A stretch of DNA of 64,000 nucleotides from an uncultured Collinsella sp. GTDB taxonomy: Bacteria > Actinomycetota > Coriobacteriia > Coriobacteriales > Coriobacteriaceae. The DNA lies in contig UREM01000003.1 in NCBI GenBank assembly GCA_900546775.1, positions 1 to 64,000 on the forward strand. The letters run 5' to 3'. Below, one piece after another: positions 2,264 to 58,917 of the stretch (its first letter is position 1; every line of letters begins with the position of its first letter). Both the position numbers and the translations under genes were made by a program. The notes under the pieces are model-generated. The model saw nothing but the letters and a program-made list of their open reading frames with translations, did no database searches and was not told where the DNA came from.

Positions 2264-2448
2264 GACGAATAGCCTCGGCCTCCCTAGTTACCGCAGGAGG
2301 CCCCAGGGCTTTCCTCCCAAATCTTTCCGCAGGACGGAAGGACCCCGCCGCGCGAAGCGCGCAGCGGGGTCCTGACATGTCCGAGGACGATTTGGGAGGT
2401 AAGCCCTGGGGCCTCCGATGAGAGCAGTTTCGGCCGAGGCTATTCGTC
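2264..2448. repeat. Composite palindrome A, TCCGCAGGACG / TGTCCGAGGACG core
   Basis: Nested inverted repeats: a perfect 17-bp outer pair (2264-2280 with 2432-2448), a 28-bp pair with one mismatch (2296-2323 with 2389-2416), and a core hairpin with GCGCGAAGCGCG at its tip (about 2340-2373). The core is flanked by TTCCGCAGGACG on the left and CATGTCCGAGGACG on the right. The right outer arm contains the last three codons and stop of pfkA, so the left arm is an inverted copy of that gene end. It could end pfkA transcription. The core recurs, inverted, at 58773-58917. Confidence 0.8.
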
Positions 2449-3519
2449 GCCGAAGCTGATGCCCAACGCCTTGGCTTCGCGCACCAGGTCGCTCTGGGGA
2501 TCGACGTACTTGAGCTTGCCGGCGACCTCCTCGAGCGGCATGTGGCACATCTTGCCGTCACGCAGGGCAATCATGTAGCCAAACTCGCCGCGCAGGCAGC
2601 CAAGCGCTGCCTCGACGCCGCACTGGGTCGCAAAGATGCGGTCCTGGGCGTCGGGCTGACCGCCGCGCTGCGTGTGGCCGGGGATGGCGACGCGGGTCTC
2701 GCGACCGGTCTTGGCCTCGATTTCCTTGGCGATGTCGTAGACGATCGACGGGCTCGTGCGCTCGGCAAGCTTCTTCTTGTACTCCTTCTTGGACAGCGCC
2801 GCGTCCTCCTTGGAGATGGCGCCCTCGGCGACGGCCACGATCGTAAAGCGGCTGCCGGTCTCCATGCGATGCTCGATGGTCTTGATGACGTTATCCATGT
2901 CGTAGGGGATCTCGGGGATCAGGATAACATCCGCGCCGCCCGCGACGCCGGCATACAGCGGAATCCAACCGACCTTGTGGCCCATGATCTCGATGACAAA
3001 CACGCGACCGTGGCTCGAGGCGGTGGTGTGGATGTCGTCGATGCACTTGGTGGCGACGTCGATGGCGCTCGTAAAGCCAAACGTCATCTCGGTGCCCCAG
3101 GTGTCGTTATCGATGGTCTTGGGCAGGGCGATAACGTTGAGGCCCTCTTCGCGCAGGCGGTTGGCAGTCTTGGTGGAGCCGTTGCCGCCCAGCATAAACA
3201 GGCAGTCGAGCTGCAGCTTGTGATAGGTGTGGACCATCGCCGGCACCTTCTCGACGCCATCGGCCTCGGGAACATCCAGGCGCTTGAACGGCGTGCGGCT
3301 CGTGCCCAGGATGGTGCCGCCGCGGGTGAGGATGCCGCTAAAGTCTGCCGGCGTCATCACGCGAAAACGGCTGTAGATAAGGCCCTGGTAGCCGTCCTCA
3401 AAACCGTAGATCTCGATAGGCTCTTCGCTATTGGTCATGAGCGTTTTGACGATGCCGCGCATGGTGGCGTTGAGCGCCTGGCAGTCGCCGCCACTGGTAA
3501 GAAGACCGATCCTGAGCAT
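2440..3519 (-). CDS. pfkA: 6-phosphofructokinase, mixed ATP/PPi-type motif
   Basis: 359 residues, the size of a group III phosphofructokinase; it phosphorylates fructose 6-phosphate in glycolysis. The N-terminal nucleotide loop LTSGGDCQALNA is present. The phosphoryl-donor site reads GGNGS (111-115) and the catalytic loop PKTIDND (133-139). Gly at the fourth position of the first motif is usual in ATP enzymes, while Lys in place of Gly in PGTIDND is usual in PPi-dependent or mixed enzymes, so the donor cannot be assigned from sequence. MGHKVGWI and the RGGQPDAQDR segment near the end are typical of the family. The 3' end is embedded in palindrome A. Confidence 0.9.
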   Translation of the reverse strand: MLRIGLLTSGGDCQALNATMRGIVKTLMTNSEEPIEIYGFEDGYQGLIYSRFRVMTPADFSGILTRGGTILGTSRTPFKRLDVPEADGVEKVPAMVHTYHKLQLDCLFMLGGNGSTKTANRLREEGLNVIALPKTIDNDTWGTEMTFGFTSAIDVATKCIDDIHTTASSHGRVFVIEIMGHKVGWIPLYAGVAGGADVILIPEIPYDMDNVIKTIEHRMETGSRFTIVAVAEGAISKEDAALSKKEYKKKLAERTSPSIVYDIAKEIEAKTGRETRVAIPGHTQRGGQPDAQDRIFATQCGVEAALGCLRGEFGYMIALRDGKMCHMPLEEVAGKLKYVDPQSDLVREAKALGISFGDE

Positions 3520-3557
3520 GATGAATCCTTCCGGGCAAGTTACAACATGCGCATAAG

Positions 3558-3591
3558 TTTACCCCCGCACACTGTTGATGCGGAGGTAAAA
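3558..3591 (-). terminator. Hairpin downstream of the amide hydrolase gene
   Basis: Arms TTTACC.CCGCA and TGCGG.AGGTAAA surround a 9-base loop between pfkA and the upstream minus-strand gene. The T-tract is weak. It could separate the two transcripts. Confidence 0.4.
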
Positions 3592-3659
3592 CGTGTTAGC
3601 TCAAATGTATAGAAATGTAAGCAACGTCAGGCGAGCGTAAGGACGACGGTGCCAGCTCC

Positions 3660-56718: not shown

Positions 56719-57012
56719 ATGTCGTCTTTGAAGCCGCTTGCAGATCGCGTCCTGGTCAAGCCCGACGAGGCCGAGCAGAAGACCGCTTCTGGTCTGTACA
56801 TCGCCAGCAACGCTCAGGAGAAGCCGCAGCGCGGCACCATCGTTGCCGTTGGCGCCGGTAAGGTCAACGACAAGGGTGAGCGCATCCCTATGGACGTTCA
56901 GGTCGGCGACGTTGTCATCTACGGTAAGTTCGGCGGCAACGAGGTCAAGGTCGACGGCGAGAAGTATCTGCTGATGCGCGCCGACGACATCTACGCCGTC
57001 GTCGAGGCCTAG
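56719..57012 (+). CDS. groES: GroES co-chaperonin
   Basis: 97 residues from ATG 56719 after AAAGGAGG; an upstream ATG at 56686 is unlikely. SSLKPLADRVLVKPDEAEQKTASGL with the mobile loop and the end YLLMRADDIYAVVEA are canonical. It caps the GroEL chamber. A TATAAC at 56621 may be its promoter. I see no CIRCE (TTAGCACTC-N9-GAGTGCTAA) or HAIR repeat upstream, so its heat regulation is not evident. Confidence 0.95.
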   Translation: MSSLKPLADRVLVKPDEAEQKTASGLYIASNAQEKPQRGTIVAVGAGKVNDKGERIPMDVQVGDVVIYGKFGGNEVKVDGEKYLLMRADDIYAVVEA

Positions 57013-57108
57013 TCTCGTCAGAATCTCTGATTCGTCTTTGAACGCGCCCGCCGCATAGGACTCGGAAGCGGCGACGCGAGTCACATTTCTTTTGGAGGAT
57101 TACCTACC

Positions 57109-58746
57109 ATGGCAAAGAACATTACGTTCAACACCGATGCCCGCGCCAAGCTCGCCAAGGGCGTCAACACTCTGGCCGACGCCGTTACCGTCACCATGGG
57201 CCCCAAGGGTCGCTACGTTGCTCTGCAGCGCACGTTTGGTGCCCCGACCATCACCAACGACGGCGTTTCCGTTGCCAAGGAGATTGAGCTCGAGGACAAC
57301 ATCGAGAACATGGGTGCCCAGCTGGTGAAGGAGGTCGCCACCAAGACCAACGACACCGTGGGTGACGGCACCACCACCGCAACCCTGCTCGCTCAAGCCA
57401 TCGTCAACGACGGTCTGCGCAACGTCGCCGCTGGCGCCAACCCGCTGGCCATCCGTCGCGGCATCGACAAGGCCGTCAACGCCGCCGTCGCCGAGATGAA
57501 GAAGCAGGCCAAGCCGGTCGAGACCAAGGAGCAGATTGCTTCCGTCGGTACCATCTCCGCCGGTGACCCCGAGGTCGGCGAGAAGATCGCCGAGGCCATG
57601 GAGGTCGTGGGCAAGGACGGCGTCATCACCGTCGAGGATTCCCAGACGTTCGACATCACCATCGACACCGTCGAGGGCATGCAGTTCGACAAGGGCTACG
57701 TCTCCGCTTACTTCGTCACGGATAACGACCGCATGGAGGCCGTGATGAAGGATCCGTACATCCTCATCACCGACCAGAAGATTTCCAGCGTCCAGGACAT
57801 CATGCCTGTTCTCGAGGCTGTCCAGCGCGCTGGCCGTGGCCTGCTCATCATCGCTGAGGACATCGATGGCGAGGCTCTGCCGACCCTCGTCCTCAACAAG
57901 ATCCGTGGCGCCCTCAACGTCTGCGCCGTCAAGGCCCCGGGCTACGGCGATCGCCGCAAGCGCATCCTGGAGGACATCGCCGTCCTCACCGGTGGCCAGG
58001 CTGCTCTGGACGAGCTGGGCGTGAAGGTCGCTGACATCACCGCCGATATGCTCGGTACCGCTAAGTCCGTCACTATCTCCAAGGACAACACCGTCGTCGT
58101 CGGCGGCGCTGGCTCCAAGGAGGCCATCGACGCCCGCATCGCTCAGATCAAGGGCGAGATGGAGAACACCACCTCTGACTTCGACCGCGAGAAGCTCCAG
58201 GAGCGCTTGGCCAAGCTCTCCGGTGGCGTTGCCGTCATCAAGGTCGGCGCTGCTACCGAGTCCGAGCTCAAGGAGATCAAGCACCGCGTCGAGGACGCCC
58301 TGCAGGCAACCCGCGCTGCTGTCGAGGAGGGCATTGTCGCCGGTGGCGGCGTCGCCTTCATGGACGCTGCTCCTGCGCTCGACGCCGTTGAGCTCGACGA
58401 CCCCGAGGAGAAGATCGGTGTCGACATCGTCAAGAAGGCTCTGACTGCTCCGGTCGCTACCATCGCCAAGAACGCTGGTTTTGAGGGCGCTGTCGTGGTC
58501 GACAAGGTTGCCGAGCTGCCCGCCGGCCAGGGTCTCAACTCTGCCAACGGCGAGTGGGGCGACATGATCGAGATGGGCGTCCTCGACCCCGTCAAGGTCA
58601 GCCGCGTCACCCTGCAGAACGCTGCTTCTGTCGCCAGCCTGATTCTCATCACCGAGGCTACCGTCTCCGATGTGCCCAAGAACACTCAGCTTGAGGACGC
58701 TATCGCTGCTGCCACCGCTGGTCAGCAGGGCGGCGGTATGTACTAA
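57109..58746 (+). CDS. groEL: GroEL chaperonin
   Basis: 545 residues. ATP-dependent folding chamber. Motifs: [42 protein letters not shown], and [10 protein letters not shown] in the equatorial domain. The C-terminus QQGGGMY is shorter than the GGM-repeat tail of many species. Follows groES by 96 bp. Composite palindrome B starts 26 bp after the stop. Confidence 0.97.
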
Positions 58747-58772
58747 GGCCGACAAGGTCTAGAACTCCCACC

Positions 58773-58917
58773 GGGGATCCGGGGGCGTGACGGGGGCTTC
58801 TCTCCGGAACGTCCTCGGACATGCAAAGAGGCTCCGCATCGCGCTTCGCGCTGCGGAGCCTCTTTGCGTCCTGCGGAATGTTCTGGGGAGAAGCCCATTA
58901 CGCCCTCGCGGGGATCC
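58773..58917. repeat. Composite palindrome B downstream of groEL
   Basis: The outer arms, about 36 bases each (left GGATCCGGGGGCGTGACG..., right ending CGCGGGGATCC), pair imperfectly. The core, read on the minus strand, is TTCCGCAGGACG, a hairpin with AGGCTCCGCAGCGCGAAGCG at its tip, and CATGTCCGAGGACG, essentially the same as element A. Placed right after groEL, it probably also ends that transcript. Confidence 0.85.

Follow-up and report, generated by a model that had tools for sequence, protein, structure and literature searches.

What are long composite palindromes doing directly behind genes, and how do their two arms stay complementary? The question is raised by a 64,000-nucleotide stretch of DNA from an uncultured Collinsella sp. 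(assembly GCA_900546775.1, contig UREM01000003.1, positions 1 to 64,000), referred to here as the window, in which three such palindromes lie: element A at the end of pfkA, element B at the end of groEL, and element C in an intergenic gap. These palindromes are real, repeated and broader in reach than first noted, and they are of an already known kind, resembling the repetitive extragenic palindromes (REPs). They form a repeated family, whose A/B copies have a characteristic position and orientation at gene ends, whose arms change together, and whose presence at the end of pfkA goes with the lack of any credible U-tract terminator. The elements are probably transcribed and would most likely end or stabilise the message. 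The reading that we prefer, and that may equally well fail as hold, is that A, B and C are REP-like gene-end elements whose hairpin, standing in for a U-tract terminator, makes or shields the message's 3' end, and whose arms are rematched largely by template switching.

Two Dispersed Families in Collinsella

An inverted-repeat search found all three palindromes where a sequence-only reading of the window had placed them, and in RNA folding none of 200 shuffles was as stable (z-scores -12.7 for A, -9.4 for B and -14.2 for C). The outer arms of A are 100% complementary over 17 nucleotides (nt) and its inner arms 96% over 28 nt; the inner arms of C reach 95% over 40 nt, and those of B (58794-58843/58847-58896) 76% over 50 nt. 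Exact core halves occur within the window in A and B only. When up to three mismatches are allowed, the first half is found 93 times in the window against 85.9 expected, which is chance level, and the second 109 times against 70.1, commoner than chance.

The relatives compared comprised 39 genomes from 16 genera, with 42 genomes of Collinsella used for C and some later scans; the genome nearest to the window, G001, has 22% of sampled words in common with it. The exact A/B core with a gap of 15-45 nt occurs 46 times in 13 of the 39 relatives, all of them Collinsella, and a reversed-pattern control gave 0. A covariance model built from 18 A/B-type copies, with genome matches taken at E up to 0.001, matches 22 of the 39 relatives and a single genus of the 16, again Collinsella. 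Each of the 13 core-bearing genomes has 13-27 model matches, both strands counted; the 24 matches of G015 were read as 16 distinct places. The sequence-only reading had proposed a repeat family, and the core is clearly present at many other loci.

The same reading took C for a diverged form of the A/B core, and here it did not hold, as the A/B covariance model misses C even at E up to 1. Descent of C from an A/B copy was therefore dropped, the gene-sense letters in common, CTCGGACA and TGCGGAA, being suggestive only. The exact C core letters are found in 35 of 42 Collinsella genomes (0-29 per genome; control 0), including 15-26 per genome in the 13 genomes bearing the exact A/B core, and blastn with the C DNA, which reached some of these 13, returned at least 25-30 matches in each genome reached. 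Judged by sequence, A and B thus belong to a single dispersed family, and C represents a second family of like layout.

Read in gene sense, the order of parts is stop codon, outer stem P0 (missing at some loci), loop 1, variable stem P1, core loop and apical hairpin. In many A/B copies from Collinsella, loop 1 is approximately CTCCCACCGG / CCTGCGTTTAC. The core loop reads CGTCCTCG / CTGCGGAA, with P1 outside it and, inside it, an apical hairpin that is short in other Collinsella and longer in the window's clade. Among the 18 A/B copies, 36 of 51 consensus pairs show two-sided changes with the pair kept.

Two further observations concern these families. The window holds a weak match to the A/B model at 21525-21619 (15.8 bits, E 0.091), and some C cores have an apical hairpin (GAAGGCCACATTAAGTGGCCTTCTTTG) that recurs downstream, for instance in L280, as an apparent stand-alone terminator.

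Elements at the Ends of Genes

Placement was counted with one element per locus cluster, beside genes of at least 100 to 200 codons under four cut-offs, the neighbouring genes being named by reading of the sequence and not by family search. At 33-36 of 43 loci the A/B element has a gene ending beside it in sense and at 5-11 of 43 on the opposite strand, against 7-16% of random positions; with the requirement relaxed to 80 codons, the counts were 90 of 100 in sense and 60 of 100 antisense. This bias towards the stop codon and one strand bears out the earlier impression that the elements belong to gene ends. Distant Collinsella all retain an element at the end of groEL, though its arms differ among them. 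Some C copies form inverted pairs 200-285 bases apart (by reading, two in G015 and four in G040), and in L232 one C copy stands at each of two convergent gene ends.

The end of pfkA permits a comparison with relatives that lack the element. A pfkA match was present in 40 of 43 genomes, and 30 fetched loci were read together with the window. An A/B element stands at the pfkA end in 14 loci and in the window; six loci (L258, L260-L264) carry a module, D, whose inner arms and core are different but whose outer frame is shared; L259, from genome G020, has neither; and nine more distant loci are element-free. A scan for U-tract terminators over the 250 nt downstream of pfkA (196 in L270) called one in eight of the nine distant element-free ends, that of L270 being a doubtful hairpin, none in L269, and a credible one in none of the 21 element-bearing ends.

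A tree of pfkA ends (30 rows, L269 dropped as too short) has seven of 27 inner branches well supported. On it the element-free rows form a single fully supported group, and G020 falls within the element-bearing clade, which makes loss the simpler reading of its element-free pfkA. The D form in G040, a relative of G020, is flanked by GAAAT repeats, one of which G020 retains. Module D takes six changes on this tree against a mean of 5.6 under shuffled labels, and A/B takes seven against 10.2, with 21 of 500 shuffles as low. Since allelic exchange by recombination suffices for this scatter of A/B and D, the scatter is no proof of transposition.

Arms That Change Together

Sorting 215 distinct elements gave 88 locus clusters, a rough clustering that visibly splits one locus and oddly merges a few others. 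In most pairs of clusters the longest word common to the arms is 5-6 nt, so the claim that arms are mostly unrelated between loci stands; the exceptions are copies from a Myxococcales metagenome-assembled genome (MAG), with 41-44 nt, and a few Collinsella pairs with 16-24 nt. Arms differ by locus, yet they are near-perfect complements of each other. In aligned C orthologues (L241/L307, L240/L313, L229/L281) both arms have been swapped for new, mutually complementary sequence, with core and flanks retained.

Smaller changes follow the same rule. In 28 close pairs, each element being used once and identical arms, arms less than 70% alike and early gaps being left out, 20 two-sided and 28 one-sided changes were counted over 796 stem positions. 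Under independent change, fewer than one complementary double change would be expected by our estimate. Six of the 28 pairs come from pfkA, so the pairs are not fully independent, and five of the 20 two-sided changes lie in L004/L032, where they were read as one symmetric indel. The one-sided changes comprise 10 G-U, 8 A-C, 9 others and 1 from other to A-C.

Frequent symmetric changes, and far more two-sided ones than independent change would give, favour template switching, which would be the most economical account of how both arms come to change at once. Template switching is described as a process able to create and maintain hairpins (PMC8794818). In the mechanism that we propose, the conserved core sits within long stems whose letters are free and whose pairing is kept. 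The hairpin just after the stop codon would form or protect the message 3' end and so replace a U-tract terminator, a putative factor would read the core, and switching between the arms during replication would restore their pairing and may also be the source of the inverted gene-end copies described below.

Conserved loops with covarying stems would also be expected of a structured RNA, a ribozyme or ligand-binding RNA whose function lies in the loops and whose pairing is kept by selection on the RNA. In C, moreover, G-U pairs outnumber A-C pairs by 18 to 5 in gene sense; A/B shows no such excess, at 41 to 42. The elements stand behind unrelated genes and not before the genes of one pathway. 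No Rfam family reached its curated gathering score in the window, and in 10 further loci only a tRNA did, the rest of the matches being sub-threshold and chance-like. Taken together, these points make a structured RNA of this kind quite improbable.

Inverted Gene Ends and the Origin of the Arms

The outer arm of A was noticed at the outset to be an inverted copy of the pfkA 3' end, and this is correct: the copy is 17 nt long and takes in the last two codons together with the stop codon. Coding ends are inverted elsewhere at matched offsets, over 14 nt in L003 (offsets 30/26), 20 imperfect nt in L011 (24/22), 23 imperfect nt across the stop codon in L168 (17/17) and 10 nt in L229 (33/32), and at less matched offsets in L305 (25/17) and L198 (36/12). 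Such cases, together with arms that are mostly unrelated between loci and two copies from Krumholzibacteriia (L155, L207) that by eye include coding ends, are what a palindrome-making element would leave behind, that is, one at whose core the nascent strand would turn back on itself and use the flank as template, so that arrival itself creates the inverted arms, coding ends included.

Against this stands the small number of loci concerned. Complementarity beyond P1 averages 6.26 at 44 A/B loci against 5.42 (sd 0.20) when permuted, and the largest of 200 permutations, 6.64, exceeds the observed mean; at 21 C loci the mean is 6.52 against 5.36 (sd 0.23), the largest permutation being 6.05. A score of at least 9 is reached at four of the 44 A/B and three of the 21 C loci. 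Loop 1 is conserved, which is unexpected for a plain inverted copy, and no empty site with a single arm was found at the loci looked at. Nor did pfkA, the L242 locus or the groES-side C locus yield a site cleanly empty of A/B or C, and no insertion event was caught among the orthologous loci compared. We consider creation of the arms on arrival unlikely. The proposed inverted duplication of flanking DNA thus has partial support: coding ends are inverted at a minority of loci, but creation of the arms by insertion stays a conjecture, the core remaining in place at orthologous loci while both arms change; ancestral arms would also be compatible with what these loci show. The rematching of arms by template switching remains the reading that we follow.

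Three observations were made at these loci. In L242, a different repeat about 100 nt long (145-247), by eye a composite palindrome, follows a stop codon; of 17 aligned relatives, nine have it and eight lack it. At the groES-side C locus of G005 (L374), about 2.9 kb of other DNA replaces the element between retained remnants of the outer stem. Finally, the flank past B (58880-58960) resembles the element flank at another gene in L013 and L076, a likeness that suggests recombination between two elements.

The Core in Distant Bacteria and the Question of Movement

In the order to which Collinsella belongs, the core was found in 19 of 197 genomes and seven of 89 genera (control 0). A 20-letter short-core pattern, scanned over the genome_contigs collection with one genome per species, yielded 111 stretches. 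For reference, when arms are paired at random, the 95th percentile of the score is 10.5, the 99th is 15 and the maximum is 23. Among the Coriobacteriia matches, 59 of 62 score at least 11. Outside Coriobacteriia and the Myxococcales MAG there are 18 matches, of which eight lie in clear palindromes with arm scores of 12.5-29.5 (Peribacteria three, Peregrinibacteria one, Krumholzibacteriia two, UBP16 one, Mogibacterium one); the other 10 lie in no clear palindrome, score 4-7 and come near the roughly 12 chance matches reckoned. Three orthologous copies from the candidate phyla radiation (CPR) have different but matched arms. A shorter core pattern gave 1-11 matches, some chance-like, in each of 12 of these genomes besides the MAG.

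The same core in palindromes of unrelated groups points to a putative widespread factor. It is conceivable, if unlikely, that the core found in at least five distant bacterial groups marks a palindrome maker that works by fold-back copying of the gene end, its arms being symmetrically renewed and its product replacing the U-tract terminator. A link to phages was sought as well: element A had no blastn match in phages, viral contigs contained no exact long core, and the five exact short cores found in viral contigs are by eye without complementary arms.

The elements might also be selfish mobile palindromes with no host role, moved by a putative enzyme and merely tolerated at gene ends. Copies are dispersed and present or absent among relatives, those in CPR genomes lie inside open reading frames, and the Myxococcales MAG (SKON01 records, for example L104) has a fixed, possibly related repeat in 41 copies; this repeat includes the short core and an apical hairpin that pairs perfectly, but none of the 30 scored copies has complementary arms. 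A strong bias of orientation and stop-codon position is hard to square with mere tolerance, as is the retention of an element, with different arms, at the same gene ends in distant Collinsella, groEL among them. Nor do 20 loci with genes resembling the REP-associated tyrosine transposase (RAYT) have A/B or C at their flanks. We therefore regard a purely selfish nature as rather unlikely.

RAYT as the mover of A/B or C was accordingly rejected. PF01797 has matches in 36 of 42 genomes, and at 20 loci among the matches listed no A/B or C element stands beside the RAYT-like gene; other inverted repeats lie near 10 of the 20. In L354 one A/B core is found about 1.5 kb from such a gene, and in L359 and L371 the octamer CAGTCCTG occurs inside the RAYT-like open reading frame (ORF). 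As a separate observation, the window has at 6290-6330 an inverted repeat, TAAAACCTGCCAAAA / TTTTGGCAGGTTTTA, whose arm AACCTGCCAAAA also stands beside RAYT-like genes in L359 and L371 and thus looks like the REP of that RAYT.

Points Against and What Would Follow

Several results weigh against gene-end hairpins that replace U-tract terminators and are mended by template switching. The orientation counts for C are either close or small: the laxer test (80 codons) gave 32 sense and 22 antisense of 46, and the stricter test two sense and one antisense, with at most five loci having enough flank. In L083 and L082 the element is followed by a separate U-tract terminator, so that termination need not fall to the element itself. 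In four of the 21 element-bearing pfkA ends the scan flagged a borderline hairpin within the element, though this was not counted as credible, and the pfkA end of G020 has neither element nor U-tract terminator. The CPR palindromes sit inside ORFs, on the antisense strand. Finally, the ratio of G-U to A-C, tried as a sign of upkeep at the DNA or the RNA level, was dropped: after a first count of 36 to 39, which seemed to speak for DNA, the better alignment gave the values cited above, and a control of 60 U-tract hairpins from the same loci, a few of which are apical hairpins of A/B elements (L006, L064), gave 17 to 13 and does not separate the DNA from the RNA level.

Dozens of gene ends with long, near-perfect palindromes that change symmetrically between close relatives would make it possible to trace how template switching creates and repairs hairpins. 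Should the elements prove functional, U-tract terminators have been abandoned for giant hairpins at some genes of a common gut genus, which matters for the reading of its transcripts.

Features of the Window

Table 1. Positions of elements A, B and C, their parts and the adjoining genes in the window.
Feature	Positions	Strand	Basis or remark
Element A, whole composite palindrome	2264..2448	- (sense of pfkA)	inverted-repeat search, RNA folding
A outer stem P0, distal arm (inverted copy of pfkA end)	2264..2280	.	inverted repeat I2
A outer stem P0, gene-side arm	2432..2448	.	covers pfkA stop codon and preceding two codons
A variable stem P1, distal arm	2296..2323	.	inverted repeat I1
A variable stem P1, gene-side arm	2389..2416	.	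inverted repeat I1
A core half TTCCGCAGGACG	2325..2336	+	
A apical hairpin	2339..2373	.	inverted repeat I4
A core half CATGTCCGAGGACG	2376..2389	+	
pfkA ORF	2440..3519	-	name read from sequence, not family search
Element C, whole composite palindrome, second family	56371..56581	- (gene-sense strand in other C copies)	
C outer arms	56371-56386/56566-56581		16 nt, 94% complementary
C variable stem P1, left arm	56403..56442	.	
C conserved core	56449..56512	-	apical hairpin 56463-56487 within
C variable stem P1, right arm	56512..56551	.	
groEL ORF	57109..58746	+	name read from sequence, not family search
Element B, whole composite palindrome	58773..58917	+ (sense of groEL)	distal outer half degenerate
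B core half TGTCCGAGGACG	58810..58821	-	
B core half TTCCGCAGGACG	58867..58878	-	

Two more palindromic stretches were seen in the window. A 27-nt inverted repeat beginning TAAGTTGCGGTGA (995-1065) is by eye like a palindrome downstream of pfkA in L259-L264 and perhaps belongs to another family, and two nested inverted repeats, 95% complementary, surround CTGTAACA / TGTTACAG at 22386-22526.

Comparison With Known Systems

A limited literature search found no description of this family, of the behaviour of its arms or of the spread of its core. Several known systems have a similar form. Intrinsic (U-tract) terminators likewise place a GC-rich hairpin after the stop codon, a feature present in A and B; the elements differ from them in being much longer, in having a conserved internal core and in lacking a U-tract at pfkA. 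Integron attC sites carry RYYYAAC and GTTRRRY boxes, are served by an integrase and form a hairpin with unpaired bases. The elements resemble them in having such a hairpin right after the gene in a fixed orientation, but by eye they do not seem to match the boxes; AAC and GTT stand on either side of the core where the search pattern demanded them, and not at pfkA. Rickettsia palindromic elements are palindromes inside ORFs and by description resemble the CPR copies, whereas the Collinsella copies come after genes; they are mentioned beside REPs in PMC3733652.

The closest likeness is to REPs and bacterial interspersed mosaic elements (BIMEs), which, the CGTC-tagged ones included, are dispersed palindromes found mostly downstream of coding regions and sometimes within genes (PMC3733652), as the elements here are. 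The elements are multi-copy palindromes mostly outside genes and so fit the broad description of a REP or BIME. The terminal, unpaired GTAG tag of one super-family is absent among the conserved positions of A1 and A3. REPs of the CGTC super-family have an unpaired CGTC tag, a stem of 8-9 bp starting with AT pairs, a loop of 4-5 nt and a short tail, and no dedicated transposase is known for them (PMC3733652). The core does contain the letters CGTC, yet the elements depart from this pattern in stem, loop and arms. There are REP dimers enclosed in longer palindromes, much as in the layout of A, B and C (PMC3733652). Known REP units measure 20-40 bp, their stems hardly vary and their GTAG or CGTC tag stays unpaired, whereas here stems of about 30 bp or more vary by locus and only the loops are fixed.

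Hairpins made by template switching, as treated in PMC8794818, share with the elements the two-sided changes that keep stems perfect; that evolution is described there for RNA genes generally, whereas in Collinsella it would act on a dispersed element with a conserved core.

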